The notes beneath the pieces were generated by a model that saw only the letters and a program-made list of their open reading frames with translations, did no database searches and was not told the DNA's origin. From Kyrpidia spormannii (lineage in GTDB: Bacteria; Bacillota; Bacilli; Kyrpidiales; Kyrpidiaceae), in NCBI RefSeq assembly GCF_002804065.1, contig NZ_CP024955.1, forward strand, positions 2,480,001-2,544,000: a DNA stretch of 64,000 nucleotides, written 5' to 3'. Positions 1 to 20,361 of this stretch are shown here, piece by piece; the first letter of the stretch is position 1, and every line of letters begins with the position of its first letter. Made by a program: the position numbers and the translations under genes.

Positions 1-1172
1 AAGCCGCCGAGATCTGTCGTCCACAAAGATTTCCCGGTTTTCGAATCGAAGGCGTAGAGATGCCCGTCTCCAGTCGCTTCGTAAACGGCATGGTCCACCA
101 GGGCCGGGCTGGGCATCGCGTTGCCCTGAAAATCCTGTCTCCACACCAGCCGCCCGGATTTCTGGTCGTAAGCATAGATGGCTGAGTAGGTCAGACCCCT
201 GACCAACTGCATTTTGCCCTGGGACAGCATGAATTTGAGCACTTGGGAAAAGGAAAAGCCTGTGTCGCCAGCGGTGACATACACCAGCCCATCCCCCACG
301 ATGGGATTGCCCATGAGGGCGTTCACAGTGGGACCCGCCTGCCACAACAATTGACCCGTTTTTGCATCCAGAGCGTAGAGGTGCGCATCATCCGACTCCG
401 CGTAGATCACTCCGTCCACCGCCGTAACGCCGCACGCATTGCCAAGGCTCTGGGTCATTTTCACTGGCGCCCCCCGCATGCCCAACTGGCGCAGATCAGG
501 AAATTCTTGAGACAACGGCACGGCCGCTTTTTCTGGAAAGTTCCACATCACCCCTTCTTTTTCCCAGCTTGGGGCAGAATCGGGGACGGGATAAAAGGGA
601 TTGTGGGCCTGATCCCCGGCGTAAGTGGTCCATTTCCCGGGAAATCCCGGAGCGTCCGATGGAGAGGGAAAAGGTGGGGCCACGATATTCTGAACTTCAC
701 TCAATAATGCAGACGCCGAATCCGTGCGCAAATCCTGGACAGCGTATCCTAAGCTCTCTAACTGGTTGACCAATGATCCCGACAGGGAATCCTTTGTACC
801 GACCAAATACACTTTTGGCTTGCCCGGAGCTGGTTGGTAGGGCTGCACATCACCAATCGGGTTTGCATCAGGTACGGACAGTTGCGACAGAGATTGAAGC
901 GTGTTCGGGCCCAGTTCCACCGCACTTTGGGTGAGTAACAGAGGGGCGGATAAATACGCGGCAAGTGCCTGGCCAGCTACCAGGTCCGACCGTTCACTTT
1001 TTGGATCTCCGGAACAAAGAATCACCGCCGACGAACCGCTGGGAAACATTCGGACCGCCATTTGCGCCGCCGACGTCGCCGTCGTCGGGACCTCACCTGC
1101 CGCCGACGCCATGCCCGCCCCAAGCAGAACTCCCGCCGCCGCCACCGCGGACCATTTTCGTCCGACTTTCAT
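1..1172 (-). CDS. Secreted cell-wall-binding / PQQ beta-propeller protein, 3' end beyond window
   Basis: About 390 residues are visible and the reading frame runs off the left edge. The ATG at 1172 follows a GGAGG 7 bases upstream and opens a signal peptide (MKVGRKW, then an Ala/Gly/Leu-rich stretch ending near ASAA). Residues about 30-120 resemble a cell-wall-binding repeat 2 module (ILCSGDP, APLLLTQSA, PKVYLVG). From about residue 190 onward there are PQQ-type propeller blades: HLYALDAKTGQLLW, IYAYDQKSGRLVW and HLYAFDSKTGKSLW. The protein is probably exported and held to the wall, with the propeller as a binding or assembly scaffold; there is no evidence for a PQQ cofactor. It lies downstream of the LuxR gene on the same strand, 126 bases away. 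Confidence 0.75.
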   Translation of the reverse strand, partial: MKVGRKWSAVAAAGVLLGAGMASAAGEVPTTATSAAQMAVRMFPSGSSAVILCSGDPKSERSDLVAGQALAAYLSAPLLLTQSAVELGPNTLQSLSQLSVPDANPIGDVQPYQPAPGKPKVYLVGTKDSLSGSLVNQLESLGYAVQDLRTDSASALLSEVQNIVAPPFPSPSDAPGFPGKWTTYAGDQAHNPFYPVPDSAPSWEKEGVMWNFPEKAAVPLSQEFPDLRQLGMRGAPVKMTQSLGNACGVTAVDGVIYAESDDAHLYALDAKTGQLLWQAGPTVNALMGNPIVGDGLVYVTAGDTGFSFSQVLKFMLSQGKMQLVRGLTYSAIYAYDQKSGRLVWRQDFQGNAMPSPALVDHAVYEATGDGHLYAFDSKTGKSLWTTDLGG

Positions 1173-1298
1173 GGTTTCACCTCCAGGAACTTCTAAGTAT
1201 TCTGATTCACCTGGCTCCACCATACATGGGGCGGCGGCTGAAATTCTATTCCTCGATCTTCTTATTTTTTCTAAACAGGCGGTTAAAACGCGACTTTT

Positions 1299-2261
1299 CT
1301 AAGAATCTTGACTTGCGGCGTCGGAACCGCCAGCGCTCTCCGGTCCCGCGTCCCCCTGGCCACGAAAAACGAGACAATGTTTCCGGGCCCAAACGGTGAG
1401 TTCCTCTCGGCTATGTACTTGAGTCTTGCGCATCATCCCGGCAACATGGGCCCGGACCGTACCTTCACTGATTTGTAAATGTTGTGCGATTTGGCGATAT
1501 GACTTATTTTCTGATAATAGACAGAGAACTTCAAACTCTCTGGGAGTAAAAAGTTGAAAAGCCTCCTGTCGACGGGCGATGATCCGAGCCAGCGTTCGCC
1601 CCGCCTCCTCACCTTTCGATCGACTTGCTGTCTGACACAGTTCTTCCAGTAAAACCCGTATCTGTTCTTGCTTGAGCACACTCTTTTCGATTCCCATCGG
1701 CGACATCATCGTCGCGAGCAACTCGGACAGCGCTTCTTTCAAGGCGTGGCGCTGGCGGTTTATCCCCTCCTGGAGCTCGTTCAGCCGAGCGATGGTATAG
1801 CCGAGAAGGCCCATGAGAAGCGTCGCGGAGGCAATACCCACCGCCCAGCCAGGATGAATCCAGCCTTCGGGCCCACGGTTGATCGTCGCCATGCGAAGAG
1901 CCAAGAGCAATGCTTCAGCACCGATCGCCCAAATAAAGCCGCGGGCACCGAAAGCGAGAAACACCTCAGCCAACACGGGTGGGGCGAGGAGCAGGGCGGG
2001 AACCCCGGGATTTCCCAGGAAGAGTGCGTAAAAAATCAGCGCATAGACGATGTCCCGAAGGGCAGTCCATCGGTCCGCCCCGGAGACGGTCGAGGCGCGC
2101 AATTGAGACCCGATGTCGATGGCGACATCCACGGCACTGGCCAAGAACAGGCCCATGAGAGGCAGTCCAAAATCTTCCGTCGACCCGATGACACCTAGAC
2201 AAGCGAGGGGAATGACGGAGCGAATCCACAAGACGGGAGAAAACTTGGTTACTCTCACCAT
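1299..2261 (-). CDS. Membrane-anchored LuxR-family transcriptional regulator
   Basis: About 320 residues. The N-terminal half holds several hydrophobic segments (about residues 5-155, including LMGLFLASA and ALLLAPPVLAEVFLAF). A charged, probably coiled stretch follows (LNELQEGINRQRHALKEAL), and then a C-terminal LuxR/GerE helix-turn-helix (FTPREFEVLCLL, YRQIAQHLQISEGTVRAHV). The open frame extends to 2312, but only the ATG at 2261 has purine-rich pairing upstream (GGGAG about 8 bases away), so it is preferred. The gene sits just past a hairpin ending the sulfur operon and on the same strand. A role in regulating that operon is a guess from position. No receiver domain is visible, so the membrane part may be the sensor. 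Confidence 0.75.
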   Translation of the reverse strand: MVRVTKFSPVLWIRSVIPLACLGVIGSTEDFGLPLMGLFLASAVDVAIDIGSQLRASTVSGADRWTALRDIVYALIFYALFLGNPGVPALLLAPPVLAEVFLAFGARGFIWAIGAEALLLALRMATINRGPEGWIHPGWAVGIASATLLMGLLGYTIARLNELQEGINRQRHALKEALSELLATMMSPMGIEKSVLKQEQIRVLLEELCQTASRSKGEEAGRTLARIIARRQEAFQLFTPREFEVLCLLSENKSYRQIAQHLQISEGTVRAHVAGMMRKTQVHSREELTVWARKHCLVFRGQGDAGPESAGGSDAASQDS

Positions 2262-2313
2262 CTCCACGGCTCCCAATAGACAGATTGACCGTTCAGGTCG
2301 AGATTCCATCAAT

Positions 2314-2351
2314 CCGGGCCGCGCCCCGGCCGGAACTCCGGGGCGGCCCGG
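2314..2351 (-). terminator. GC-rich hairpin after the sulfur operon
   Basis: Arms at 2314-2329 (CCGGGCCGCGCCCCGG) and 2338-2351 (CCGGGGCGGCCCGG) pair with a two-base bulge. It sits 10 bases past the last radical SAM gene and before the LuxR start. No T-run follows, so it may only attenuate transcription or stabilise the 3' end. Confidence 0.5.
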
Positions 2352-2361
2352 CCTTGTGATC

Positions 2362-3333
2362 TCAGTTCAACACAGAACAGCATTGTTCGTGATAACGGAT
2401 CCGGATCCCAAGTTGCTCTGCGTAGGCCACCGTTTCCGGCAACGGATACGCGATACTTTGAACCCCTACCCGAAGGGCCCACCGCTCCATCGATCGCTTT
2501 TCCGGGCCGGCCGGGCGCGCGCAACCTAAGGAGATCGGCATATCTGGCATCATAATCCGGGCGGCCGCCAGGACTTTGCCCACCTCGTCTCCGGAAACGC
2601 TCCTCACCCCGGCCATGCCCGTGCCAGGCAAGGGTTGCAGGGCGACAATGACCAGTTGCGAGGCCCCCTCCTCCCGGATCATGCGCAGGGCTTCCCACTC
2701 CCCGAGAATTTCCCCAAAATGAAGCCCCACCACCACATGGGGAATAGCGGAGAGTCCTTCTTCGCGAAGGATGCGCAGTGATTCCCGATAAGCTTCGGTG
2801 GTACGGTCCAGATGGTACACCTCGCGAATCGTCCGATCGTCCCCAATGATGTCCAACAGAATTTGGTCGACCCCCGCCGCCTTGAGTCCCCGGGCGATCT
2901 CCCGGCGAACCAGACCGGTGTGGACGAGGACTTTGAGCCCTTTCTCTTTCAGCCGACCGATGTCTTCGAGAAAGCGATCCAAGGGAACGGACCCGTCGTC
3001 GAGACAGCCACCGCTGATCAGAACTCCCCTTGCCCCCTCGTCAACCAACGCAGCCCCGATCTCGGCCAGCGCTCCCGGGACCCTCGCCGGCATCATTCCA
3101 TCCAGGACCTTCGTCCCACAGTGTTCACAGCGCAGTGCGCACGCCTGGCCGGTGACACTAATGGTGCGAAAAGCCCGGCGTTCATTGCGGTATCCTCCTG
3201 TGTCGTAGTACTTTTGACTGGGGGCGGCAAAGAGGATCTCCCGGGGAAAAAACTGATCGGTCAGCTCCCGGGCCTGGTCGACCAGAGACGGGAGATCTAG
3301 GTCAGCCCAAGGCGCTTTGGTCGTGAGCATCAT
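2362..3333 (-). CDS. LipS-type radical SAM protein (lipoate synthesis)
   Basis: 323 residues. The radical SAM Cys motif CALRCEHC lies at about residues 51-58, followed by the glycine-rich SAM-binding segment LISGGC and a TIM-barrel-like remainder (LVHTGLV, HVVVGLHFGE). The C-terminus ends in a Cys pair (HEQCCSVLN). The open frame extends 141 bases further into the upstream gene; GGGAGGGGGAGG immediately before ATGATG fixes the start at 3333 or 3330. It overlaps the other radical SAM gene by 32 bases, so the two are probably translationally coupled. In the LipS1/LipS2 pathway two such biotin-synthase-like enzymes together insert two sulfurs into octanoyl chains on carrier proteins. I cannot tell which of S1 or S2 this is. 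Confidence 0.75.
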   Translation of the reverse strand: MMLTTKAPWADLDLPSLVDQARELTDQFFPREILFAAPSQKYYDTGGYRNERRAFRTISVTGQACALRCEHCGTKVLDGMMPARVPGALAEIGAALVDEGARGVLISGGCLDDGSVPLDRFLEDIGRLKEKGLKVLVHTGLVRREIARGLKAAGVDQILLDIIGDDRTIREVYHLDRTTEAYRESLRILREEGLSAIPHVVVGLHFGEILGEWEALRMIREEGASQLVIVALQPLPGTGMAGVRSVSGDEVGKVLAAARIMMPDMPISLGCARPAGPEKRSMERWALRVGVQSIAYPLPETVAYAEQLGIRIRYHEQCCSVLN

Positions 3334-4480
3334 CCTCCCCCTCCCAATCGCTCCACAGTTGCATGCGAATCTCTTCAATGTCTTTCGGCGTCGGGATGAA
3401 GGGGAAGTTGCGCATCGGCTCGCTCGGGCGACCGTTTCCGTACGGGCGATTGCAGGCCGTGGCCCCGTGTTCATCCGGACAACCCGAGGTCATAAAGGGC
3501 AGCCCGCTATCGATCACTGCGTCGAGCTCCTCCGGGGCTACACCGAAATCGACGACCTGGCCGGCCCGATTAAACCGAAACCGGTGAAAATCTCGGCCCA
3601 TTTCGTTGATGAGATACCGGCCCAACTGGCAGCGCCGGTACTGTCCCAAGGGAGGCTGCGGCCAGTCCCCCAGCAGGGTGCTGGGTTCCGGATTGAAAGA
3701 GAACAGGTGGGTCACCACGCCCATCTCCTGAGCCCTGTGACAGGCTTCCAGAAGTTCCTTTTCTGTCTCTCCGAGTCCGACCACCAAGTGGATCCCCACC
3801 GTCCCAGGTTCGAACACCTTGGTGGCCTCCTCCGTCACCCACCAAAAATGGTCCCAACGATGTGGCCCTTTGACCGGCCGCCCTCGATGCTTTTCAAACA
3901 GTTCCTCGGTGGCCGCATCAATCGCGATATCCACCCGGTCCGCCCCGGCGTCCTTGATCATTTGGAGCTGTTCCCGGGACCGGATGAGAGAGGCGGTGAT
4001 TAGTCCGGAGATGAGCAGGTCGGTTCGCTCCCGGAATTCCCGGATCACTTGAAGAGAGTCGTTAAAGGACCGGTGATTCGCCAACATCCCCACGCACACC
4101 CGGCGCATGTGATGAGGAACCTGGTTCGTGCGATCAATCACCTCATCCAGGTCCACCACCGGCCATTTCACCCGAATGAAGGTGGTTTGTTCTCTGGGTA
4201 TTCGCCTCTCCCGGGACATGCCGCAGTAGGAACAATTCGCCGAGCAGTTCTCTTTATACGTCATCAGTACGTTGAGGCCCCGGAGGACGATCTCCTCCCG
4301 GGCGAACTTGCCTTTCTCGATTCCCAGGGCCATCGCCCCCGCCAGAGAGACCATAACGGCGTCCGGGCTTTCGGGCACCCCCTCTTGATGCGGCCGTTCC
4401 TCCACCTGGTCCTCGGAAAACGCCTTGATGTCCCGAGTCTGGGGTTCGAGAACCTGTGCCTCTCGATGCGTCGGTGTCAT
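3302..4480 (-). CDS. LipS-type radical SAM protein, second of the pair
   Basis: 392 residues. An N-terminal extension of about 70 residues precedes the radical SAM motif CSANCSYC (about 77-84). Later features are LLISGLIT, a GADRVDIAIDAATEEL strand-helix, LVVGLGETEKE, and a C-terminal Cys pair (SGCPDEHGATAC) that could bind an auxiliary cluster as in lipoyl synthases. The ATG at 4480 has GGGAGGAG upstream. It lies directly downstream of a ligase gene and overlaps the next radical SAM gene. The context (three lipoate-protein ligases, three lipoyl carriers) supports lipoyl assembly rather than biotin synthesis. This is inference from family and neighbourhood; LipS1/LipS2 numbering is left open. 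Confidence 0.75.
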   Translation of the reverse strand: MTPTHREAQVLEPQTRDIKAFSEDQVEERPHQEGVPESPDAVMVSLAGAMALGIEKGKFAREEIVLRGLNVLMTYKENCSANCSYCGMSRERRIPREQTTFIRVKWPVVDLDEVIDRTNQVPHHMRRVCVGMLANHRSFNDSLQVIREFRERTDLLISGLITASLIRSREQLQMIKDAGADRVDIAIDAATEELFEKHRGRPVKGPHRWDHFWWVTEEATKVFEPGTVGIHLVVGLGETEKELLEACHRAQEMGVVTHLFSFNPEPSTLLGDWPQPPLGQYRRCQLGRYLINEMGRDFHRFRFNRAGQVVDFGVAPEELDAVIDSGLPFMTSGCPDEHGATACNRPYGNGRPSEPMRNFPFIPTPKDIEEIRMQLWSDWEGEDDAHDQSALG

Positions 4481-4520
4481 AACGCCTCTCCTCCCTTCTC
4501 GACCTCTGATCCACCCCGCC

Positions 4521-5589
4521 TTAGGCTAGGGCCTGTTCGAACAGGCGCAGCCAGTCCTCCACCGCCACTCCAATGTATCGATTGCCCTGGTCATAGTGAC
4601 GGCGCAGCAACTCTTCGATTTTCTGGATGTCGGCGGGCGCCTCTTTTAGCATCGCTTCTAAGTCCATAACGGCTCGTTCGGGATAAACGAAAAAGTCCCC
4701 GGTGATAAACGCCCGGCGAATCCGCTTCGCCCCAGGATCGACGATCACCGATGCTTTAATCAGCCCCCCGGGCGCTTTTGTACTGACGGTGCGCAATTCT
4801 GGTTCAACAGCAGGCGGCTTCCGCCGATCGATCCACTCGGGATAGCGATAAGTATCCTGAATCGTTTCCCATTCTTCTTGCTCCTCAGGCGTCAAGCCCG
4901 GAGGCCCCCAATCGATCCCGAGTACCCGGGCCGCCGCCTCCACCATCGCCCCTTTCACCGCCGTCATCTCAGGCGCTTCGCCCAACAGTTCCCTCATGGT
5001 CACTGTGCGGCGGCGAAAAGAATCCACTTCTTTGTCACTCAACTTTTCGATGGGAAGCCTTAATACCCGAATCATCGTGTCCACGTCAAAATCTACCAAG
5101 AGCGTGCCCTGATAGATCAAGGCGTCTCCCCACTCGGTTCCTCCGGTGCCAGAAATCTTGCGCCCATCGACCTCCACATCGTTAACCGGGGTTAACCGGG
5201 CGAAACTTGGCCTCAATGCCCCACCGCGCCAAAGTTTCGATGACGACGGTGGAAAGCCGGCGGTACACCGTTTCCGGATCGGCGGGAAGCCCGGGATCAT
5301 CTTTGCGCAAACAGATTTCCCAACCCAACTGCCGGGAGTCGAGATAAATGGCCCCCCCGCCGGTGATGCGGCGATTATACTCGATCCCCAGGGCTTCGCA
5401 CTCGTCCCGGCGCAGTTCGAGATCGATCGCCTGATGGTACCCCACGAGTACTGCATCAGGATTAAACTCCATAAACCGAAAGGTGTTTGGCGCCCGCCCT
5501 TCCGCCCGGGCCCGAATCACCACCGCATCGAGAGCCATTTGGCGCCAGGCCGGCATGGGCCCGGGATCCAATAATCGCCACTTTTCCAT
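4521..5589 (-). pseudogene. Frameshifted sLpl(AB)-type lipoate-protein ligase (third copy)
   Basis: Two adjacent frames together make one ligase. The N-terminal part starts at the ATG at 5589 and has the lipoyl-binding motif RRITGGGAIYLD, reaching FRPVN. The C-terminal part, in another frame, resumes at VNDVEVDGRKISGTGG with the catalytic-lysine motif and ends with the LplB-like accessory domain (KAPGGLIKASV, GDFFVYPERA). The break is a 10-bp tandem duplication at 5181-5200. Removing one unit gives 352 codons, close to the intact 349-residue paralogue at 8935-9984, whose matching segment reads HRPVNDIVVGPRKIGG. As written the protein stops just past RPVNPG. It could be a recent inactivation, a reversible slip or an assembly error. 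Its start overlaps the stop of the upstream carrier gene (TGATG). Confidence 0.85.
5181..5200. repeat. 10-bp tandem duplication causing a frameshift
   Basis: GTTAACCGGG occurs twice in direct succession, at 5181-5190 and 5191-5200. Ten bases is nine plus one, so one extra copy shifts the ligase frame exactly at its conserved RPVND motif. Confidence 0.95.
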
Positions 5590-6014
5590 CAATGGGCACT
5601 CCCGGCGGCCAGAGAAAGTAGCAACGCCTGATACTCCCGGGGGCTGAGCAGGCGGTGGACATCCTCGGAGCGGTTCGGGCGTATTTTGCAGATCCACCCG
5701 GCCCCATAGGGGTCCCGATTCAACAACTGGGGGTCCTCCTCTACCCGGGGGTTCGCATCCACCACGACCCCGTCAAAGGGCGCGTAGATTTGCCCGACCC
5801 ATTTGCCCGACTCCACGGAGCCCATTGGCTCCCCTGCTTGAATCCGTGCCCCAACCCGAGGCACAGACAGGTACAGAATGTCTCCGGCTGTATCCTGGGT
5901 ATAGTCGGTGATGCCCACAGTCACCGTGGAACCGATCAAAAGGTACCACTGGTGGCGATCATCATACCGCCGGTCCTCGGGAACTCTCCATTGCTGCGGC
6001 TGCTCAACGGCCAT
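5589..6014 (-). CDS. LbpA-like (GcvH-like) lipoate-binding protein, third carrier
   Basis: 141 residues from the ATG at 6014 (AAGGAGGGGGAAGGAG upstream). It has a GcvH-type lipoyl fold: HQWYLLIG, VGITDYTQDTAGDILYL, the lipoyl-lysine motif ESGKW, then the PFDGVVVDANP strand and DPYGAGW. The SGKW context differs from the SVKA of glycine-cleavage GcvH and matches the carriers of sHdr clusters. Unlike the two other carriers here it has no C-terminal Cys. It overlaps the upstream ligase by 11 bases and the downstream broken ligase at TGATG. The likely role is to carry sulfur on its dihydrolipoyl arm as a partner of the Hdr-like complex. Confidence 0.8.
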   Translation of the reverse strand: MAVEQPQQWRVPEDRRYDDRHQWYLLIGSTVTVGITDYTQDTAGDILYLSVPRVGARIQAGEPMGSVESGKWVGQIYAPFDGVVVDANPRVEEDPQLLNRDPYGAGWICKIRPNRSEDVHRLLSPREYQALLLSLAAGSAH

Positions 6015-6903
6015 CTCCTTCCCCCTCCTTAAGAAAAGATTCCCGCCACACCCGCAGGATGCGGTTGTGTTCGCGATCGATTTCGACGACGGCATCCCGA
6101 TAGCGCGGATCGTCCACCGTCCCGATGTACACGCCCTCCCGGACCTTGACCTCTCGGCTGTTCGACGCCCGGGCGGGCCCCGGCTGCCGCAGCCAGTCGT
6201 CGCGAAGCAGCTCCCGGCCGATCCTCTCCAGGCGGCCCCGCCAACGCTCCCAGGGGAAAGGGGCAGGGACCGCCCCCAGGCGATCGATGAACACCTGAGC
6301 CAGATCTTTCGCCACCTGATCTGCGGACCAGCGGCGGTCCGGGGCCAGCTCCCGCAGCGTCGTCAGATGGGCCCGCATACTTTCTTCGTACGCCCGGCGC
6401 CAGAGTGGACTTGGAGCCCGACGAGCCCGGGCCATGGCCTCCGTGGGAAAATCCAGCAGGATATTGCCAACCACGACGACCCGATCCCCCAACTGGCCCC
6501 CGGCGTTCCCCGAAATCTTGCGCCCGCCGACGACGATGTCCGCCGGGAGGCGCAACTCGGCCGAAAAACCCTGCTCCCGCAGATAGGCCACCACAGGATC
6601 CAAGGCATGGCGATACCACTGATCCGGAGTGCGCTTTCCTGGAGTTGCGCGGGGGTTCAGGATGATTTGGAAAAATACTTGGTTTTGATCTAAGTACACG
6701 AGGGAACCGCCCACTTTCCGCCGCACCACGGGTAATCCCGAGGATTCGTCGTAGTCGCTCCAACTCTGATGACATCCGAGGCAGACGTAGGGCGTCGAAG
6801 GTCGGCACAATATCACGGCCTCCTCGCCGAATTCCGCCAAACCGTGGTACAGCGTCTGGGTCGTGAGCCAATCCACCTCGCCCACGGAGTACAATGGCAA
6901 CAT
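6004..6903 (-). CDS. Lipoate-protein ligase family protein, second copy
   Basis: 299 residues in the biotin/lipoate ligase fold. Visible motifs are TPYVCLGCHQS, the substrate loop RRKVGGSLVYLD (VGGS replaces the usual TGGG) and GGRKISGNAGG with the catalytic lysine. The C-terminal region after about residue 230 diverges from the other two ligases in the window and shows no clear LplB-like domain. The ATG at 6903 follows AGGG; the preceding DsrE-like gene ends 9 bases upstream. It probably attaches octanoate or lipoate to one of the LbpA carriers. The altered loop may give it a different carrier or substrate preference from the copy at 8935. Confidence 0.75.
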   Translation of the reverse strand: MLPLYSVGEVDWLTTQTLYHGLAEFGEEAVILCRPSTPYVCLGCHQSWSDYDESSGLPVVRRKVGGSLVYLDQNQVFFQIILNPRATPGKRTPDQWYRHALDPVVAYLREQGFSAELRLPADIVVGGRKISGNAGGQLGDRVVVVGNILLDFPTEAMARARRAPSPLWRRAYEESMRAHLTTLRELAPDRRWSADQVAKDLAQVFIDRLGAVPAPFPWERWRGRLERIGRELLRDDWLRQPGPARASNSREVKVREGVYIGTVDDPRYRDAVVEIDREHNRILRVWRESFLKEGEGDGR

Positions 6904-6912
6904 AACCGGTCC

Positions 6913-7302
6913 CTAGAACGTCACCGTGACATCGGCATCAAAGGCGTATTCGAGGAAGGCCGCCGCGCCTCCAACGGGACACCGATCGGGCAGTTGTTCC
7001 TGGGTGATCCCCATAACATCCATCGTCATTTGGCACCCCAACAGTTCCACCCCAGATTCCCGGGCCATGTCCAGCATTTCTTTAACGGAGGGCAGCCCCG
7101 CCTGCCCGAGAGCGGCTTGTAAGTGCTCTTTACCGGGCGGCATCTGCAGGGATTCCGGTGCCGTGAGGATGTTCAAACCCTCAAAGGTGAAGAAAATCTT
7201 CACTTCCGCGTCCATCGATGCGGCTGCCACCGCGATGTTCAACACTTTGTATGCGGTGTCCAGCGTGCCTTGAGACGCAATAATCGCCACGCGACGTGCC
7301 AT
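6913..7302 (-). CDS. DsrE-family sulfur-transfer protein
   Basis: 129 residues with the DsrE/DsrF-like fold: a MARRVAIIASQGTLD beta-strand start, KIFFTFEGLNIL, and a conserved Cys in ELLGCQMTMDVMGI. The C-terminal segment is DADVTVTF. The Cys context suits the DsrE3A-type proteins found with TusA in sHdr gene clusters, where they relay persulfide sulfur in the cytoplasm. The ATG at 7302 has AAGGAGG upstream; the open frame continues to 7347 but lacks a better site. It lies between an unknown protein gene and the second ligase. Confidence 0.8.
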   Translation of the reverse strand: MARRVAIIASQGTLDTAYKVLNIAVAAASMDAEVKIFFTFEGLNILTAPESLQMPPGKEHLQAALGQAGLPSVKEMLDMARESGVELLGCQMTMDVMGITQEQLPDRCPVGGAAAFLEYAFDADVTVTF

Positions 7303-7343
7303 AATCCTCTTCTCCTCCTTCATGAAACGGGGAAATCCCCTGT

Positions 7344-7727
7344 TCAAGATTGATTTTGCGAACGGCCATACTCTTCGACCAACTGATCAAACCGAGCGAC
7401 CCACTCCGGAGTTTCGCAGCGGAGGATGAGTTCACCCACCGGCCGCTTATCTTTGAGCCTTCCCTGCAGCGCCAACTGGTAAGGTTTGTCCCGAGGTTCA
7501 ATGACCAGCTGCCACCGGCCCACCGAAGGCGGGCGACCTGAACCCCGGGGGCCGAGTTCCGACATCATGTAGATCGTGTATCCTTCGATGGGCTCGTAAT
7601 AGGGCAGATGATCATTGCGGCCAAAATTGATATTGCGCAGGACTTCGTGAAGAGTGTTCAGAAACTCCAGCCGGTCCTCGAACCAGGGGGCGAGATCGGG
7701 CAAAGGCACCTCGATCCTCCGGGTCAT
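7344..7727 (-). CDS. Protein of unknown function in the sulfur operon
   Basis: 127 residues, soluble, with no signal peptide or membrane segment and no Cys pair; I do not recognise it. Visible features are RIEVPLPDLAPWFEDRLEFL, the aromatic NDHLPYYEPIEGYTIYMMSE and a repeated acidic/basic C-terminus. The ATG at 7727 follows GGAAGG; an in-frame ATG at 7748 is an alternative. It sits 5 bases after the GAF gene and 41 bases before the DsrE-like gene, so it is firmly within the operon. A role as a small accessory or binding protein for the sulfur pathway is inferred from position only. Confidence 0.65.
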   Translation of the reverse strand: MTRRIEVPLPDLAPWFEDRLEFLNTLHEVLRNINFGRNDHLPYYEPIEGYTIYMMSELGPRGSGRPPSVGRWQLVIEPRDKPYQLALQGRLKDKRPVGELILRCETPEWVARFDQLVEEYGRSQNQS

Positions 7728-7731
7728 GTTC

Positions 7732-8274
7732 TCAAACCTTCCTTTCATCGTTAGAACCATCCTTGGGAGCTGCCTGTGAGCACAGTCCCTGTTTTGGCCA
7801 CCGGTCTCCGACGCGCTTTGTGGCGGCACTGAAGAGTTCCACCTCAATCACGCTGAATCGATCGACTTGCTGCGATTTTACCGAGAGCACCCCCTGGACG
7901 ATTCCGGATCGGATCACGGGCAGGGCCACTTCCGACCGGGTCCCGAGTCGGTCCCGGAGATTCCCGGGAAACCGCCGCACGTCAGCCACAATCTGTACCG
8001 CTCTCTCAAACGCGGCGGAACCTACCACCCCCTTTCCCCAGCCAATTCGAGGCACGGTGGGCGGACCTTGAAACGGCCCTAACGTCAGGTTCCCGCCCAC
8101 ACTTTCTGTGACATACCAGCCGAGCCAACTCAGGTCTGGAAGTTCATGGAACAAATAGCTCGTGACGTTGCAGAGTCCAGGCAGAAAGGCACCGCTCTCG
8201 TCCAACAGCCGATCCACCTCGGCGATGATGGCGGGGATGGAAACTTCGCCGCCGGACACCGGATCTTCTGCCAT
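7732..8274 (-). CDS. GAF-domain protein resembling free methionine sulfoxide reductase, cysteines lost
   Basis: 180 residues. The sequence follows the fRMsr-type GAF pattern: LFHELPDLSWLGWYV, LGPFQGPP, GKGVVGSAA, RSEVALPV and GVLSVKSQ. In the enzyme family three Cys occur around PACVRI, GVCGTA and the ACDSAS loop. Here the matching stretches read PPTVPRI, GVVGSAA and LRDRLGT, so all three are absent and reductase activity is unlikely. The start ATG overlaps the stop of the DsrE-like gene (TGATG). It may be a redox or small-molecule sensor or an adaptor for the sulfur system. The alignment to fRMsr is from memory. Confidence 0.7.
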   Translation of the reverse strand: MAEDPVSGGEVSIPAIIAEVDRLLDESGAFLPGLCNVTSYLFHELPDLSWLGWYVTESVGGNLTLGPFQGPPTVPRIGWGKGVVGSAAFERAVQIVADVRRFPGNLRDRLGTRSEVALPVIRSGIVQGVLSVKSQQVDRFSVIEVELFSAATKRVGDRWPKQGLCSQAAPKDGSNDERKV

Positions 8275-8654
8275 CAGAAACTCACCACCAAATCGGCCTC
8301 CAACAACATTTCGTTCACCGCGGTGCCCCCCACCACCCCATCGATCTCAATCAAATCTTCCACTGTGACATCGTTGAGGTCGAGACTTGGGGCGCAGACG
8401 TAAAATTTGACGCCAGCGTCCCGGGCTTGATCGATAAAAAACTGGAGATTCGCCCCTTCTCCCCCTTCCTTTACCTGAAGGGTCTCTGCGACGCCCTTTT
8501 TCAAAAGGCCCGTGGCCTTGATGGTAAAAACCATCGAGACGTCGTAGTCCATCAAAGCGGCGGTCGTAGCGAGAAAAAATGGCGAGGCCGCCCGGTAGGG
8601 AGCTTCAACCCCCGACGTATGAATGTATACACATTTCTTCGTTTCCTCGGACAC
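8274..8654 (-). CDS. DsrE-like protein adjacent to tusA
   Basis: About 126 residues of the DsrE/Peroxiredoxin-like DUF fold: CVYIHTSG, PFFLATTAALMDYDVSMVF, LLKKGVAETL and a single central Cys in VKFYVCAPSLDLNDV. The C-terminal EADLVVSF matches the end of the other DsrE-like protein. The likely start is GTG at 8654, spaced 8 bases from GGAGG; the longer TTG start at 8660 would be too close. Its neighbours, tusA 12 bases upstream and the GAF gene overlapping downstream, support a sulfur-relay role with TusA. Confidence 0.75.
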   Translation of the reverse strand: MSEETKKCVYIHTSGVEAPYRAASPFFLATTAALMDYDVSMVFTIKATGLLKKGVAETLQVKEGGEGANLQFFIDQARDAGVKFYVCAPSLDLNDVTVEDLIEIDGVVGGTAVNEMLLEADLVVSF

Positions 8655-8666
8655 GGACAATCCCTC

Positions 8667-8909
8667 CTATTTTGTACGTTTGATTCGATACACGTAGATC
8701 CCTTGATTTTCTGAAGCCTGCAAAAGATCGTGGCCGGTGGCCCGGGTCCAAGCTTCAAAGTCCGCCATGGAGCCGGGATCCGTGGCTTCTACTTCGATCA
8801 CCTGTCCGACCTCGATACCCAGAATGGCCTTTTTGACCCGCACCACGGGCAGTGGGCATTTCAGCCCTTTCGCGTCAATTTTCAATGCGACATCCTCCGC
8901 CATGAACAT
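8667..8909 (-). CDS. tusA: TusA-family sulfur carrier
   Basis: 80 residues. The signature CPLPVVRVKKAI gives the conserved CPxP with the persulfide-bearing Cys at residue 18, after KIDAKGLK. The rest (VGQVIEVEATDPGSMADFEAW, YRIKR) fits the two-layer TusA fold. AAAGGAG precedes the ATG at 8909; an ATG two codons in is an alternative. It is a central cytoplasmic sulfur carrier that, in sHdr organisms, collects sulfane sulfur from rhodanese or DsrE proteins and delivers it to the LbpA-sHdr machinery. No tRNA-thiolation partners lie nearby, so the sulfur-oxidation role is favoured. Confidence 0.9.
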   Translation of the reverse strand: MFMAEDVALKIDAKGLKCPLPVVRVKKAILGIEVGQVIEVEATDPGSMADFEAWTRATGHDLLQASENQGIYVYRIKRTK

Positions 8910-8934
8910 CCACTCCTTTATAAGAGATTCAAAA

Positions 8935-9984
8935 TCAATGGGTGACCCGAAAAGCCTGCATCAAATCCTCCACGCCCACCCCCGGGATCGACGCCTCTTC
9001 CATCAGCCACTCAGCCGCCAAAACCCACTCCTCTTCACAGACCTTGCGACCGATAAGCCGCTCGGAAAAACGCTCCAGGGCATCTTCGGGATATGCGAAG
9101 AAATCCCCCGCCAACAGCACATCGTCAAAAAGACCATCCCGGGTGCGGTAGATCAACCGGATGAGCCCGCCGGGGGCTTTGTGGACCCCTTCGTACAGGC
9201 GCACAGCCTCCGAGATCTTCACTCCGCTGCGAAGAATCCCTTCGGATCGGAAAACAAAAGGTTCGGAGAAGAGGAGTTCTTCGAACTCCCTGAGCGCTTG
9301 TTGCTCCCGTTGCGAAAGCCGACCGGCCCGGGCGGGTTCCTGGAGAATCGACGCGAATTCCTCCACTAAAATCGCTGTCACCTGCTCGCGATCCGGCAGC
9401 GGCTGACCTGCCAGTTCCCGGCGAATGGAGGTCATATATTCCGATAAGCCCGAAACCAGTTTATCGCGAAATTTTTCCGATGGAACCCGTAGGACCTTCG
9501 CCATGGCGTCGACGTCAAAATCCATCATGATGCTGCCGACCAGCACGATGGACGTGCCAATCGTCGCTGCGCCGGTACCCCCGATCTTGCGGGGACCCAC
9601 CACGATGTCGTTGACCGGCCGGTGTTCGGCGGCAATTCCGATGCGGTGATACGCACGGACCGGCGCTTGCAGCCAGGTCTCATAGAGGCGTTGTACCGGA
9701 ACCTGGGATTCCGGGAGAATGAGGTGCCAAAAAATCTGATCCTGATCCAGATACACAGCCCCGCCCCCCGTCATGCGCCGGCCAATGGGCATGCCCTGCT
9801 CCCGACAGTATTCGACATCGATTTCTCGACTGGTCACCTGATGAAAACCGGCGCATACGTACGGTGTGCGGGGGCTGACGACGATGAGGGTCGCCTCGTC
9901 GCCCGGGCGAGCCTCCCGGGCGACGGCATGATACACCGCCTGGGACCTCTCCGCCGAGACGATTCCCAGATTCAGATAGCGCAT
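8935..9984 (-). CDS. sLpl(AB)-type lipoate-protein ligase
   Basis: 349 residues with the LplA-like catalytic domain (RTPYVCAGFHQ, RRMTGGGAVYLDQ, RPVNDIVVGPRKIGGTG with the catalytic Lys) fused to an LplB-like C-terminal domain (HKAPGGLIRLIYRT, LLAGDFFAYPEDALERF). This domain order defines the sLpl(AB) ligases associated with sHdr clusters, which charge LbpA with octanoate or lipoate. It is the only intact copy of this full-length form here; the copy at 4521-5589 is frameshifted. It lies 51 bases after the second LbpA gene and 25 bases before tusA. Confidence 0.85.
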   Translation of the reverse strand: MRYLNLGIVSAERSQAVYHAVAREARPGDEATLIVVSPRTPYVCAGFHQVTSREIDVEYCREQGMPIGRRMTGGGAVYLDQDQIFWHLILPESQVPVQRLYETWLQAPVRAYHRIGIAAEHRPVNDIVVGPRKIGGTGAATIGTSIVLVGSIMMDFDVDAMAKVLRVPSEKFRDKLVSGLSEYMTSIRRELAGQPLPDREQVTAILVEEFASILQEPARAGRLSQREQQALREFEELLFSEPFVFRSEGILRSGVKISEAVRLYEGVHKAPGGLIRLIYRTRDGLFDDVLLAGDFFAYPEDALERFSERLIGRKVCEEEWVLAAEWLMEEASIPGVGVEDLMQAFRVTH

Positions 9985-10035
9985 GTCCTCACCCCTTGCC
10001 CTGACCTGCCCATAGCCTTGAACGAAAACGTTATC

Positions 10036-10509
10036 CTAGACCGCTCCAGGGTTTGATTCATCTGAAGGGATACACCGAAGGCAGGTGAGCCCTTCCTCGC
10101 GAAGTTTTTGCTCAAAGAGTGGTACCGCTTGGTCTGCGGGCAGCAGGTTTCCTTGGGGCCACTCCTGGCTGGAGGGTTCCATCTGAACGATCCAGCCCTC
10201 TTCATAGGGACTGCGGTTGATCACATTGGGATCCTCCGCCACTGCGGGGTTGAGCCGCAGCACTTTACCCTGCAGCGGACTGGTGATGGGGCCAACCCAC
10301 TTCCCCGATTCCACTGTAGCCACACTCTTACCGGCCCCGACGACCTTCCCGACGCGAGCTCGGATCTGCAAGATCTTGCCCGCCCGGGTCTGGGCTGGAT
10401 CGGTCATCCCGAGCAACACGGTGTTGTCTTCGAGTCGTTTTACCCAGACATCGAGTTCAACATCGTACCACAGGTCATCGGGAAACTCGCACATCATCAC
10501 CCTGGCCAT
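10036..10509 (-). CDS. LbpA lipoate-binding protein, second carrier
   Basis: 157 residues, GcvH-like: VWVKRLEDNTVLLGMTD, AGKILQIRAR, the lipoyl-lysine motif VESGKWVG, the GKVLRLNPAV strand and SPYEEGW. A C-terminal extension ends with LTCLRC, two Cys absent from ordinary GcvH. In sHdr bacteria LbpA cannot replace GcvH and serves as the swinging arm that carries sulfur between sites. It lies 21 bases after the first carrier. The cysteine pair could take part in sulfur loading or metal binding; this is inference. Confidence 0.85.
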   Translation of the reverse strand: MARVMMCEFPDDLWYDVELDVWVKRLEDNTVLLGMTDPAQTRAGKILQIRARVGKVVGAGKSVATVESGKWVGPITSPLQGKVLRLNPAVAEDPNVINRSPYEEGWIVQMEPSSQEWPQGNLLPADQAVPLFEQKLREEGLTCLRCIPSDESNPGAV

Positions 10510-10530
10510 GGGCTCATCTCGCCTCTCCCT

Positions 10531-10965
10531 CTAATGGCTGCACTTGATTCCCTCAGCTTCCAGCTTTTTTCGATACTCAGCAACCCCGTCCGCCCCGGTC
10601 GCCAGATTCTGGGAGTCGGCGCTCCAGTCCGCGGGCTCAACGCGAATCAACCAGCCCGCGCCATAGGGATCGGTGTTCACCAGGTCGGGCTGCCCTTTGA
10701 TCTGTTCATTGATCGCAATCACTTTGCCCGCCACTGGAGTCGGGATCGTCCCGACCCATTTTCCGCTTTCAAGAGTTCCGGCGCTCTTGCCCCGGGCCAA
10801 GTTTTTCCCCAGGGAGCGCAAATTCACCACAATGATCTTGCCGGCCAAGCTCTGGGCCACATCGGTCATGCCCACCAACACCGTGCCGTCCGGCTCCGGT
10901 TTTGCCCACACGTGCTTGTCGATCCAGTAATAGAGGTCTTCCGGAAGAATGCAGCCATCGCTCAT
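10531..10965 (-). CDS. lbpA: LbpA lipoate-binding protein, first carrier
   Basis: 144 residues, GcvH-like lipoyl domain: WIDKHVWAKPEPDGTVLVGMTDVAQ, GKIIVVNLR, the lysine motif LESGKWVG, PVAGKVIAINE and DPYGAGWLIRV. The C-terminus ends GIKCSH with one Cys. It overlaps the Emo-like gene by 4 bases (ATGA), tying it to the electron-transfer part of the operon. Its short N-terminus and SGKW motif match carriers encoded next to shdr genes. No glycine-cleavage genes (gcvP, gcvT) are in the window. Confidence 0.87.
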   Translation of the reverse strand: MSDGCILPEDLYYWIDKHVWAKPEPDGTVLVGMTDVAQSLAGKIIVVNLRSLGKNLARGKSAGTLESGKWVGTIPTPVAGKVIAINEQIKGQPDLVNTDPYGAGWLIRVEPADWSADSQNLATGADGVAEYRKKLEAEGIKCSH

Positions 10966-13103
10966 GTCACTGTCTCCTCCACTACTTCGTTCGCGAGCCC
11001 CAGGGCCTTTTCAAGCAGGAACACGAGATCTCCCACTTCCAACTGTCCTTCATACCCCGCCGTCTTCACGGCATCGGTATACATCACCAGATCTTTGGGG
11101 CAAGCGACGATGAAATGAGTAACTCCATCGAGTTGTTTCGCTTCTTTAATGCGACTTTCCGCCGGCTTTGTGGGATAGAGGGTATCTCCCATCCAGATTC
11201 TTCCTCCCCCCGCTCCGCAACAGAAGCTGTTTTCCCGGTTGCGGGGCATTTCCACCAAAGTCGCCCCGACGTGAGCGATGAGGTTGCGCGGAGGATCGAA
11301 GACTCGATTGTACCTTCCGAGATAGCAAGGGTCGTGGTAGGTCACTTTGACGTTCTGGGGATATTTCACCGGCAGCCGGTTTTCCCGGGCCAGGCGATCG
11401 AGAAGCTCCGTATAGTGCTCGATCTCCACCTCCAATCCGTGAGCCGGGTACTCGTTTTTGAGGGTATTGTACGTGTGCGGATCGGTGGTCAGGACCTTTT
11501 TGAACTTTGCCGACTGGATGGCCTTGATGTTTTTCTCCACGAGGGTTTCGAACAGCCCTTCCTCACCCACTCGCCGCACATCGTTCCCGGCGTTCCGCTC
11601 CGCTTCATACAAGATGCCAAAACTTACTCCCGCATGAGTGAGAACCCGGGCCAGAGCCTGAGCCACTTTTTGCGCCCGAGGATCGTAGCTCGCGTAGTCC
11701 CCGACAAACCAGAGGTATTCCACCTCTTGTTTTCGGGCGTCCGGGACGGGGACCCCCGCCTCCTTGACCCATTTCGCGCGATTGCGTTCCGACTGGCCAA
11801 AGGAATTCCCTTTGCGGGCAAAATTCATCAGTGTGGCCGACAGGTTGCCGTCCATCGTGCCTTGGTCGATGAGCGAGCGGCGCATCTGCACGATGATAGG
11901 AACGTGCTCAATCCCCACCGGGCAGGTTTCCACGCAGGCCCGACAGGTGGTACAGGACCACAAAACGTCGGGAGCAATCAGCTCTCCAGGTTCGAGGGCG
12001 GCGGAAACCTCTTGCGAAGACAGGTCCGACTCCGCCGCCGAGTGGCCAACTTTGGCCCCCGGCCTCTTCATGCCATGAAAACCACTGATCGCCTCCCGCA
12101 AATCCAGGATGAGGTCCCGAGGGGATAGTGGCGCTCCGGAGTTGCGGGCAGGACATACATCGTGACAGCGGCCGCATTTTGTACAGGCATCGAAGTGCAA
12201 GAGTTCTTTCCAACTGAGATTTTCAGCGGCGGGAGCCAGCGGCAGCCCCGGCTCGGTCTCTGAAGGCGGCGGTGGCAGGGCGATCCCGGCTTTCGGATTG
12301 CGTACGGTCAAACTCGCCCAGGACGCCAGCATGTGAACAGATTTGGCATAGGGTAGATAGGCAATAAACCCCAGTGCCAGGAAGGCGTGAACCCACCAGG
12401 TGATAAAATGCCAATCCATCGCCGTCTGGGGAGTCATTCCGGCTGCCCGGAACCCTTGGGCAACCAGGGATCCCACCGGGGAATAAGCCTCAAACCACGG
12501 CCGATCTGCCACAAGCCGGAACGCCTCGATCAAGAGGCCTGTCACGCCGATCAACAGAAGCTGACCGAGAAACCACCAGTCCTCTTTCTTGTAGTTCGAG
12601 CGATCCACCGGCTTGTTGTCCACCCGGGCGTAGTTCAGCCGGGCTACGGCAAAAAATGCCCGGCGCACCGCCAACATCCCCAGGCCGATGATAAACAGGA
12701 CCATGGAAATGTCCATGACGACCGAGAAAGCGAGGAAAAAATCCCCTTTCCAAAACTGGAGTTTCGGTGCTATGAGTCTCAGTATGTCATTGTCAATGAA
12801 GATGATCGTGGTTCCTAGAAACAGAAAACCGAACGACCAGAACACAAATCCGTGGGCAATGCCGGTATAAAGGTCCCTGCGCCCGATTTTGCGACTGGTC
12901 AGCACCTCCGCGGTGGCCCGGATCAGCCGCTTGGGCCAATCCGGGTACCACGGCTGCCGGCGACCCGCCCGATAACGTTGGATCCGGCGAATGACGCCGT
13001 AAAGGAACACACCGATGGCGATGAATGCCAGGAAGTAAAAGGCTGGCACCAGCCACGTGTGCTCGAATCCTTCGAATACGGGCCGTTCAGCAACGGGATT
13101 CAC
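10962..13103 (-). CDS. Membrane ETF:quinone oxidoreductase, Emo-like (cytochrome b-type + FeS + CCG)
   Basis: 713 residues. The N-terminal 270 residues contain about five to six membrane helices (LVPAFYFLAFIAIGVFLYGV, FFLAFSVVMDISMVLFIIGL, HFITWWVHAFLALGFIAYL) with His residues of the nitrate-reductase-gamma type likely to bind heme b. Then come two 4Fe-4S motifs (CTKCGRCHDVCP, CTTCRACVETCP) and a C-terminal HdrD-like part with two CCG-type motifs (DPCYLGR, FCCGAGGG, VACPKDL). The order matches the EMO type that links electron-transfer flavoprotein to menaquinone. GTG start at 13103. With EtfAB immediately upstream, it probably passes electrons from the sHdr system into the membrane quinone pool. 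Confidence 0.85.
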   Translation of the reverse strand: MNPVAERPVFEGFEHTWLVPAFYFLAFIAIGVFLYGVIRRIQRYRAGRRQPWYPDWPKRLIRATAEVLTSRKIGRRDLYTGIAHGFVFWSFGFLFLGTTIIFIDNDILRLIAPKLQFWKGDFFLAFSVVMDISMVLFIIGLGMLAVRRAFFAVARLNYARVDNKPVDRSNYKKEDWWFLGQLLLIGVTGLLIEAFRLVADRPWFEAYSPVGSLVAQGFRAAGMTPQTAMDWHFITWWVHAFLALGFIAYLPYAKSVHMLASWASLTVRNPKAGIALPPPPSETEPGLPLAPAAENLSWKELLHFDACTKCGRCHDVCPARNSGAPLSPRDLILDLREAISGFHGMKRPGAKVGHSAAESDLSSQEVSAALEPGELIAPDVLWSCTTCRACVETCPVGIEHVPIIVQMRRSLIDQGTMDGNLSATLMNFARKGNSFGQSERNRAKWVKEAGVPVPDARKQEVEYLWFVGDYASYDPRAQKVAQALARVLTHAGVSFGILYEAERNAGNDVRRVGEEGLFETLVEKNIKAIQSAKFKKVLTTDPHTYNTLKNEYPAHGLEVEIEHYTELLDRLARENRLPVKYPQNVKVTYHDPCYLGRYNRVFDPPRNLIAHVGATLVEMPRNRENSFCCGAGGGRIWMGDTLYPTKPAESRIKEAKQLDGVTHFIVACPKDLVMYTDAVKTAGYEGQLEVGDLVFLLEKALGLANEVVEETVT

Positions 13104-13128
13104 GTGAGTTCAACTCTCCTTTCCCTGA

Positions 13129-14073
13129 TCAAGCGCCTTTGACCTTCTCGGTGAGGGCGGGCACCAGTTCGAGAATGTCTTCAACGATTCCATAATGGGC
13201 AACGTCGAAGATTGGCGCCTTGGGGTCGGTGTTTACGGCGATGATGCAATCCGCGTCCCGCATACCTTCCAGGTGTTCGGGGGCCCCGCTGATCCCGAGG
13301 GCCAAGTAGACTTTGGGCTTGACTTTTTTGCCCGATTTCCCCACTTGCCGAGATTTCGGGAGCCATCCAGCATCGATGACCGGCCTTGAGGCCGACACCA
13401 CCGCGCCAAGGGCTTCGGCCAATTCTTCCACCACCTCGATGTTGTCCTTGTCACCAATCCCCCGGCCGATGCTGACGAGAATATCTTGTTTGGTGATATC
13501 GACATCGGTGCTGTCGGGCATGGAGAGCCCCTCATACACCGTGGCTGCCGCCTCCGCTGCGGTAATGGTTTCCACCGTGGGGTTTCCTTGAACGTGCCCC
13601 CGCTCGGCATCGCCGGCACCAGCCAGGACTTGTAGGATGGTGAGCTCGGTCACTTCTGCCGTGGCGACCATTTTGCCACCGAGAATCACCGATTCCACCT
13701 GCCACCCCTGTCCCGCCGGTTCCACCTTCTGGACCGAGGCGATGGTCGAGCACCCTGCCCGGCTGGCCGCATAAGTAGCCACGTCCATCCCCACGGCGGT
13801 ATTTCCCACAAGTACCAGGTCCGGGGATACTTGATCTATCGCTTGGGCCAAGGTTTTGCCCAGGGATTCCGGCAGGTAACGATTATCCGGATTGTCGGCC
13901 AACAGCACCCGGTCCGCCGCCCCCAGTTCCGAGGTGAGACCGGCGGGCATGACGGCGAGGGCTGTCACCGTGCCGCCATCCCCTGTCACCCGGCGCGCGA
14001 GATCGAGCAACTCGTATGTGATATCGGCAATCTTCCCGTCCAAGGTCTCTACGAAAACCAATGCTGTTGACAT
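13129..14073 (-). CDS. etfA: Electron transfer flavoprotein alpha subunit
   Basis: 314 residues. The C-terminal FAD-binding domain is canonical: VSASRPVIDAGW, RQVGKSGKKVKPKVYLALGISG, HLEGM, IIAVNTDPKAPIF and YGIVEDI. The ATG at 14073 has GGGGAGGCGGGAGA upstream; the frame extends six codons further. etfB lies 31 bases upstream and the Emo-like gene 25 bases downstream. It partners EtfB to carry electrons between the HdrCB-type protein and the Emo-like membrane protein. Confidence 0.93.
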   Translation of the reverse strand: MSTALVFVETLDGKIADITYELLDLARRVTGDGGTVTALAVMPAGLTSELGAADRVLLADNPDNRYLPESLGKTLAQAIDQVSPDLVLVGNTAVGMDVATYAASRAGCSTIASVQKVEPAGQGWQVESVILGGKMVATAEVTELTILQVLAGAGDAERGHVQGNPTVETITAAEAAATVYEGLSMPDSTDVDITKQDILVSIGRGIGDKDNIEVVEELAEALGAVVSASRPVIDAGWLPKSRQVGKSGKKVKPKVYLALGISGAPEHLEGMRDADCIIAVNTDPKAPIFDVAHYGIVEDILELVPALTEKVKGA

Positions 14074-14104
14074 TCTCCCGCCTCCCCACATTAGACAGCT
14101 AGAT

Positions 14105-14872: not shown

Positions 14873-14903
14873 AAACGTCCCCTCCCACCATTCGGTACAG
14901 CTT

Positions 14904-16196
14904 TTACTGGCCGACCTCGACCGGACTTTCCAGCAATCCGGCGGACTGGGCGAGCAATTCAGCGATATCCATCACTTCCAATTTTCCTGCGTTGCCGGTC
15001 GATTTTACCGCGTCCTCAAAACGCGAGACCTCAAAGGGACAAGCCACGGCGAGGATGTCCGCCCCGTACTCGATGGCCTCCAGCACCCGCCGTTCAGACA
15101 GGCGCATGCTCAGGTGGTCGCGGTTAAATCCATCCAGCCACATCCCTCCTCCGCCACCTCCGCAGCAATACGCGGTCTCCCGGCAGTGCCCCATTTCCAC
15201 CAATTCAAGACCCGGGATCGCATGCAATAGCTTGCGGGGTGCGTCGTACTCCCCGTTGTGCCGGACCAGATAGCAGGGGTCGTGGAACGTGACCCGCTTT
15301 GGAATCGGGATTTTTAAATCCAACTCGTGAATTTTAGAAGCGAGATACTGAGTGTAGTGCACCGTTTGAAAGTTTCCACCCAGGGCCGGGTATTCGTGTA
15401 AAAACGCGTTGTACGCGTGGGGATCTGTCACCACAATCTGGTTGAACTGGTACTTCGAGAGCATCTTGATGTTATGCTCGGCGAGCATTTCGAATAGGCC
15501 GCGCTCTCCGGCCATCCGCTGGGAGTCCCCGGCACACTTCTCCTCGTGGCCGAGAATGCCAAAATCAACTCCCAGGGCATTGAAGATCCGCGCCAGAGCG
15601 ATGGACGCGTCCTTGCCCCGGGGGTGGTAAGAGGGGTAGCACTCCACAAACCACAGGACATCCACCGGAGCGTTGTGTTTGCTCATGATGGGTACCGGTA
15701 CCCCCGCTTGTTTCGTCCAGTCCGCCCTTTTCCGGGGGGACTCGCCCAGGGGGTTGCCGTAACGGGCTGTGGCTTCAAAGGCATCGAGCAACTCTTTCGG
15801 GGCTTTCCCCTCCAGCACGGCTTTCTCCCGCACCGCCGGCATGATTTTGATCATGTTGACTTCTTTCGGACATACCCGCAGGCAGTTCCGGCAGGTCGTA
15901 CAGAGCCAGAGGTCCGGGCTGTCTAACAAGGAGGCGCCGAGTTGGGTACGGCGAAACACCTTGCGAGGCGAGAAATCGCCCACCGTGTCGATGGGGCAGA
16001 CCCCCGTGCATTTGCCGCACTGGTAACAATATCCAAGGGACTCCGCCCCTTCGATGGAGGTGACCGTCTCCAAGGCGGATAGGTCGTACTCTGTGATAGG
16101 TCGCGGTTCAAACATCCGGTTGAACGAACCGGTGAGCCGCATGCCGTCGACAACCACTTCGAAGAATTCAAAGCTTTTGGCTTTCGCGTTGCTCAA
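14904..16196 (-). CDS. HdrC-HdrB fusion (HdrD-like) FeS/CCG subunit of the sHdr system
   Basis: 430 residues. Two 4Fe-4S motifs lie at the N-terminus (CYQCGKCTGVCP, CTTCRNCLRVCP) and two CCG-type motifs at the C-terminus (VECYPSY, DPCYLVRHN, YCCGGGGGG, VACPFEV). The central ARYGNPLGESPRKRADWTKQ segment is clearly paralogous to the Emo-like protein (ARKGNSFGQSERNRAKWVKE). The start is probably TTG at 16196, 7 bases from GGAGGGAG, overlapping the upstream gene by 29 bases. It replaces the separate HdrC2 and HdrB2 of the other sHdr cluster type and, placed next to etfBA, is the likely exit of electrons from the complex to EtfAB. Confidence 0.85.
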   Translation of the reverse strand: MSNAKAKSFEFFEVVVDGMRLTGSFNRMFEPRPITEYDLSALETVTSIEGAESLGYCYQCGKCTGVCPIDTVGDFSPRKVFRRTQLGASLLDSPDLWLCTTCRNCLRVCPKEVNMIKIMPAVREKAVLEGKAPKELLDAFEATARYGNPLGESPRKRADWTKQAGVPVPIMSKHNAPVDVLWFVECYPSYHPRGKDASIALARIFNALGVDFGILGHEEKCAGDSQRMAGERGLFEMLAEHNIKMLSKYQFNQIVVTDPHAYNAFLHEYPALGGNFQTVHYTQYLASKIHELDLKIPIPKRVTFHDPCYLVRHNGEYDAPRKLLHAIPGLELVEMGHCRETAYCCGGGGGGMWLDGFNRDHLSMRLSERRVLEAIEYGADILAVACPFEVSRFEDAVKSTGNAGKLEVMDIAELLAQSAGLLESPVEVGQ

Positions 16197-17981: not shown

Positions 17982-18022
17982 ACCGGTTCCCCTTTCTGCA
18001 TCGGAATCGGAACTCAGTTGGA

Positions 18023-19225: not shown

Positions 19226-19278
19226 CGATCCTCTTCTCCTTTCTCCTCGTAACCTGACAGAGTGATTGGCGATTCCCT

Positions 19279-20055: not shown

Positions 20056-20247
20056 ATCGACCTCCTCTGTGAAATCTGTACATGAATAAGGTTGACTTTG
20101 GTTTGATTCAAACTCTACCTCCTTTTCCGACTCCACCGATGCCATTGAACAGCTCAACATCTCTTGATGGCAACAAATTCTAGCGCGACCGTTTCATCGT
20201 CCAGGGTGAGTCAAAGGGTGCGACCTTTGCAGGAAGGGAAATGTTTC

Positions 20248-20300
20248 ATCGAGGTGCTTCATTGAAGTGCTTCTATCGAGGTGCAACATCCAGGTGCTGT
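20248..20300 (-). repeat. Four 13-14 base tandem repeats in the sulfur-operon leader
   Basis: In the transcribed orientation the unit is GCACCTCGATGAA with small changes (GCACCTGGATGTT, GCACCTCGATAGAA, GCACTTCAATGAA, GCACCTCGATGAA). Starts on the plus strand are near 20248, 20261, 20275 and 20288. Regular spacing close to 13 bases suggests binding sites for a protein on DNA, or on the RNA leader since it is downstream of the predicted promoter. Confidence 0.75.
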
Positions 20301-20361
20301 GTGGGTACCGCTTGGTACGAGTACGATACCCGGTAGGGTTCACTGTTTATTCACGGTTTTG

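Follow-up and report, generated by a model that had tools for sequence, protein, structure and literature searches.

Lipoate ligases of the sHdr sulfur-oxidation cluster are represented in the thermophilic bacterium Kyrpidia spormannii EA-1 by three ligase-family genes, and in the third of these, Lpl3, ten bases are exactly doubled. This raises the question of whether the gene has been lost by mutation, is turned on and off by the number of units, or is merely misrepresented in the reference genome. The unit GTTAACCGGG stands twice in exact tandem at 5181-5200 of the forward strand of the window (the whole 64-kb stretch of EA-1 DNA analysed here), which corresponds to genome position 2485181-2485200 (CP024955) and lies inside the RPVND motif of the Lpl3 gene. 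The string formed by both units, GTTAACCGGGGTTAACCGGG, occurs a single time in the entire 3,352,175-bp genome of EA-1. Chance alone would give about 0.07 exact period-10 tandem pairs in 64 kb, and one was observed. The flanking bases do not extend the repeat, the pair stops exactly at two units, and the junction is without microhomology. Both the exact 10-bp doubling and its position at the conserved RPVND motif had been proposed in a preliminary description of this DNA; they are borne out by the sequence, in which the doubling forms the sole 10-bp gap against the sister genome over the 1,251 bp compared, and by the reading of the frame and the alignment of orthologues.

Lpl3 is encoded on the minus strand, and its ATG at 5589 shares bases with the TGA of LbpA3 (a TGATG overlap). 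Read from this start, the protein (...RRITGGGAIYLD...KFRPVNPG) ends after 135 residues at a TAA (5184-5182) that falls within the duplicated unit, as compared with an intact length of about 352 residues. The frame loss splits the PF21948 catalytic domain of Lpl3 at about position 116, and the C-terminal portion, which is LplB-like, is open in another frame than the first 135 residues (Table 1). This stop codon confirms the early claim that the third ligase of the cluster loses its reading frame through the duplication. The length of 352 codons given for the gene once one unit is removed was counted correctly, as the intact sister orthologue has 352 residues, and the motifs downstream (GRKISGTGG and the C-terminal domain) are undamaged, as had also been stated.

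Table 1. Features in and around the Lpl3 module of EA-1 (positions in the window)
Feature	Position	Strand	Basis or remark
LipS1-like lipoyl synthase	2362..3474	-	NF053742, 228.9 bits, cut-off 230
LipS2-like lipoyl synthase, directly downstream of Lpl3	3302..4480	-	NF053743, 212.8 bits, cut-off 270
Lpl3 remainder, out of frame, NDVEVDGRKISGTGG... and C-terminal domain	4521..5181	-	stop 4523-4521
10-bp tandem duplication, GTTAACCGGG twice	5181..5200	+	coding strand CCCGGTTAAC twice; one unit in sister
Lpl3 N-terminal part, truncated, 135 aa, with RRITGGG	5182..5589	-	PF21948 positions 2-116 in region
LbpA3, GcvH-like lipoate-binding protein	5589..6014	-	PF01597
Lpl2, ligase-family, 299 aa, intact, degenerate motifs (RRKVGGSLVYLD, RLPADIVV)	6004..6903	-	PF21948; alignment
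Lpl1, first ligase, 349 aa, intact, full motifs including RPVND and RKIGG	8935..9984	-	PF21948; alignment
LbpA2, lipoate-binding protein	10036..10509	-	PF01597
LbpA1, lipoate-binding protein	10531..10965	-	PF01597
Hdr-like Fe-S protein, CVV65_12480	14904..16196	-	ORF

The direction of the change can be read from relatives. The sister genome, a complete sequence of 3,384,766 bp which we take to be that of K. tusciae DSM 2912, encodes an intact Lpl3 orthologue of 352 aa that has one unit and is the best PF21948 match of its genome (156 bits vs a cut-off of 27). Over a 1,251-bp stretch the two genomes match at 98%, and the lone 10-bp gap is placed exactly at the second unit; the comparison of one against two units in a sister, suggested in the preliminary description, therefore returned one unit. 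Six distant orthologues of Lpl3 found by tblastn (43-51% identity) have no insert at RPxND in any case. Since neither these six nor the sister have the second unit, the alignments identify one unit as the ancestral state and two units as derived in EA-1. Of 81 related genomes searched (E <= 1e-30), EA-1 and the sister alone yielded the Lpl3 gene. Another genome of the same genus (2 Mb, 86%-complete) gave no Lpl3 match and is uninformative in this respect; the two-unit pair has no match in that genome or in the sister, and no similar DNA was found among plasmid records. Across the sulfur-oxidation cluster (window 1132-20445) identity to the sister is 97.3% over 19 kb, and it reaches 98.3% at 2950-7200, with flanking regions mostly at 94-96%. 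The low synonymous divergence of the cluster suggests recent exchange or strong constraint.

Lpl3 of EA-1 differs from its sister orthologue by 11 synonymous and 3 nonsynonymous changes (dN/dS 0.0038/0.0446 = 0.08), and the ratio is alike on either side of the lesion. Lpl3 is no looser in this respect than its intact neighbours Lpl1 (0.16) and Lpl2 (0.17). As dN/dS is still low, as in these intact neighbours, the gene appears to have died recently: a Poisson bound, calculated with a background dN/dS of 0.10-0.15, keeps its dead time below some 0.2-0.3 of the EA-1 branch, beyond which three nonsynonymous changes have a P near 0.05 or below. Because the counts are small (3 nonsynonymous), a low ratio would also be expected of a toggling gene, and dN/dS would fit both a young lesion and an Lpl3 that is on most of the time.

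Genes for LipS1, LipS2 and LbpA proteins belong to the Lpl3 cluster, the LipS2 and LipS1 scores being slightly under the NCBIfam cut-offs. Of the six distant loci, four share the gene order Lpl2-LbpA3-Lpl3; two of the longer loci have Lpl3-LipS2-LipS1, and one of these two combines both orders; a third distant locus has LipS1 and LipS2 further downstream. This recurrence in distant loci argues that Lpl3 has long belonged to the module, as opposed to being a spare copy of Lpl1, to which it is only about 31% identical; its lineage is shared with Clostridia and Syntrophobacterales.

Some further features of the module deserve mention. Among the six distant loci, those from Clostridia and Syntrophomonadaceae MAGs show the order HdrC1B1-like, Lpl2, LbpA3, Lpl3, and LipS2 and LipS1 are present downstream of Lpl3 wherever the contig is long enough. 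A related Lpl3-LipS module is present in Syntrophobacterales and Deltaproteobacteria. In Lpl2, RRKVGGSLVYLD and RLPADIVV replace RRxTGGGxxYxD and RPxND, yet the gene is kept beside Lpl3 in four distant loci; to judge from these motifs, it is possible that Lpl2 does not act as a ligase. Neither the promoter nor the terminator scan of 2200-11100 rose above chance.

That the second unit is an error of the reference or its assembly, and that EA-1 truly has one unit, would agree with the single unit of the sister, and an artefact could not be dismissed in the preliminary description. This explanation is nevertheless very unlikely. A 10-bp non-homopolymer duplication is not among the usual long-read errors, for which it would be atypical. 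Independent Illumina reads from a cathode-adapted culture derived from EA-1 were mapped to CP024955 (~1,500x, 10% threshold), and six variants above 50% were reported, of which one is an indel (GG insertion) and none is located at 2485181-2485200 (PMC7823960); the main text lists only variants above 50%, and the 10-50% class is absent from it. As a false second unit would give a near-100% deletion in the mapped reads and none is listed, the duplication is most probably a real mutation and an assembly error is unlikely, an argument which presupposes that the CLC variant caller reports deletions of 10 bp within tandem repeats. One of the listed variants, 2495265 A->C, corresponds to V311G in CVV65_12480 (Table 1 of PMC7823960); window base 15265 (genome 2495265) is indeed A, and residue 311 of the ORF at 14904-16196 is V, an agreement that assigns the window to EA-1 (CP024955). 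Of the three origins initially offered for the lesion (very recent, reversible, or an assembly artefact), the recent one is thus favoured by dN/dS, the variant data argue against the artefact, and toggling is not supported.

In a contingency switch, the unit number would alternate between one and two by slippage, so that Lpl3 is on or off in part of the population. To our knowledge, no contingency control of cofactor loading has been described, and a switch, if true, would be the first. Most contingency loci consist of many short units, whereas just two units of 10 bp are present in Lpl3. The sister and all distant orthologues are without the repeat, which indicates that no tract is maintained, and the EA-1 genome has no second such locus; a maintained repeat tract with variable unit number was not found in the relatives surveyed (the incomplete congeneric genome, the sister, and the six orthologues). 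The derived culture, moreover, had not mostly reverted, as no variant above 50% is listed here (PMC7823960). The exactness of the units, the dependence of the frame on their number and the lack of decay in Lpl3 would suit a switch, and so would two precedents, reversible frameshift silencing in Mycobacterium tuberculosis (PMC8339072) and documented phase-variable repeat copy number (PMC12817950). With only two units and nothing else to suggest a contingency locus, the toggling proposed earlier is not supported, and reversible frameshift silencing in general is not new (PMC8339072). We regard a switch as highly improbable, and the same holds for its low-frequency form, in which a minority with working Lpl3 would be favoured by selection during certain kinds of growth on sulfur or at a cathode.

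Two further explanations leave the duplication in place and differ in its consequence or its source. Translational bypass, by a +1 slip at AAC CCC GGT TAA, would join the frames into a 355-residue ligase reading RPVNPVND. Indeed, a +1 step at CCC joins the frames without a stop, and both halves of Lpl3 are still constrained. However, neither a slow codon nor a stop occupies the A site at the slip, the downstream RNA structure is not unusual (z = -0.18), the sister has no slip site, and unprogrammed slippage is rare. A conserved slippery site with stimulators, as in programmed +1 frameshifting, was not found at the EA-1 junction or in the sister, and bypass is considered extremely unlikely. The least probable of all is the footprint of a departed mobile element, whose excision would have left its 10-bp target-site duplication behind: the exact length, the lack of microhomology and the near-palindromic target GGTTAACC speak for it, but the one IS found here in two identical copies makes target duplications of ~6-7 bp, not 10 (one transposase family was searched), and a clean closure keeping both copies would be unusual.

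With a high degree of confidence, the lesion is therefore regarded as a recent, ordinary 10-bp tandem duplication that constitutes a loss-of-function allele of Lpl3 in the sHdr sulfur-oxidation cluster of EA-1. Probably a replication or repair error copied CCCGGTTAAC once. Fill-in of a staggered break would be at least as plausible as slippage because of the lack of flanking microhomology. Translation would end at 135 residues, ahead of the ND and GRKISG part of the catalytic domain, and, given what is known of these motifs, this stop would leave no active ligase. As for any tandem duplication, the frame could be restored by slippage removing one unit.

Short tandem duplication is an ordinary mutation class here: each of the two genomes has one exact 10-11-bp duplication within the aligned sample (~183 kb between EA-1 and the sister), which makes the event unremarkable. 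In the sister, 11 bp (TACTGGCCGAC) are doubled in exact tandem where the Hdr-like gene has its stop codon, opposite window 14905; the protein ends at the same residue despite the duplication, with TAG instead of TAA. Background rates were derived from stretches amounting to ~230 kb in EA-1 and 240 kb in the sister. An automatic tally of disrupted ORFs there consisted mainly of spurious ORFs, due to the high GC content, and was disregarded. At 57064-57105 of the window, the copy number of an exact 18-bp tandem repeat differs from that in the sister, and insertions of 5, 10, and 39 bp are found nearby.

Given the deep conservation of the gene within a syntenic module, loss of Lpl3 is mildly surprising. 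It would be tolerated by virtue of the remaining ligases, above all Lpl1, encoded beside LbpA1 and LbpA2; four other PF21948 genes of EA-1 are without stops, two of them outside the cluster. Wild-type EA-1 grows on elemental sulfur and produces sulfate (PMC7823960). As sLpl(AB) ligases act on LbpA proteins across species in vitro (PMC6067878), loading of LbpA3 by Lpl1 would be the simplest account of this tolerance, while an LbpA3 that is unloaded and dispensable would be equally compatible.

EA-1 thus grows on elemental sulfur despite the broken ligase of a conserved Lpl2-LbpA3-Lpl3-LipS2-LipS1 module, and it constitutes a modestly useful natural Lpl3 knockout in a little-studied lipoylation module. 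Comparison of EA-1 with its sister could reveal which ligase loads which LbpA. Some caution is also advisable, as EA-1, which is in development for microbial electrosynthesis, has a lesion absent from the sister, and this lesion sits in a cluster upregulated on cathodes.

Among the closest known systems is the sHdr-associated assembly of lipoate by sLpl(AB) and LipS1/LipS2, in which ligase, LbpA, and LipS1/S2 genes likewise adjoin hdr-like genes (PMC6067878, PMC10332631); the EA-1 cluster differs in having three LbpA and three ligase-family genes. Hyphomicrobium denitrificans no longer oxidises thiosulfate efficiently once its sLpl(AB) is lost (PMC10332631). Phase-variable tandem repeats resemble the lesion in that the copy number of a unit would alter expression, but the described repeats are located in a promoter, measure 54-57 bp and were observed as copy-number mixtures (PMC12817950), whereas Lpl3 has two coding 10-bp units with no variation observed. 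Reversible frameshift silencing and its scars in M. tuberculosis (PMC8339072) are similar in that a gene silenced by an indel could be restored by a further change; at Lpl3, no restoring event or mixed population was seen among variants above 50%. The lesion corresponds best to frameshift pseudogenes caused by short tandem duplications, with which it shares the exact two copies, the lost frame, the intact single-copy allele in the sister, and an otherwise undecayed gene. It differs from these in nothing essential, and the lack of microhomology in Lpl3 favours break repair over simple slippage.
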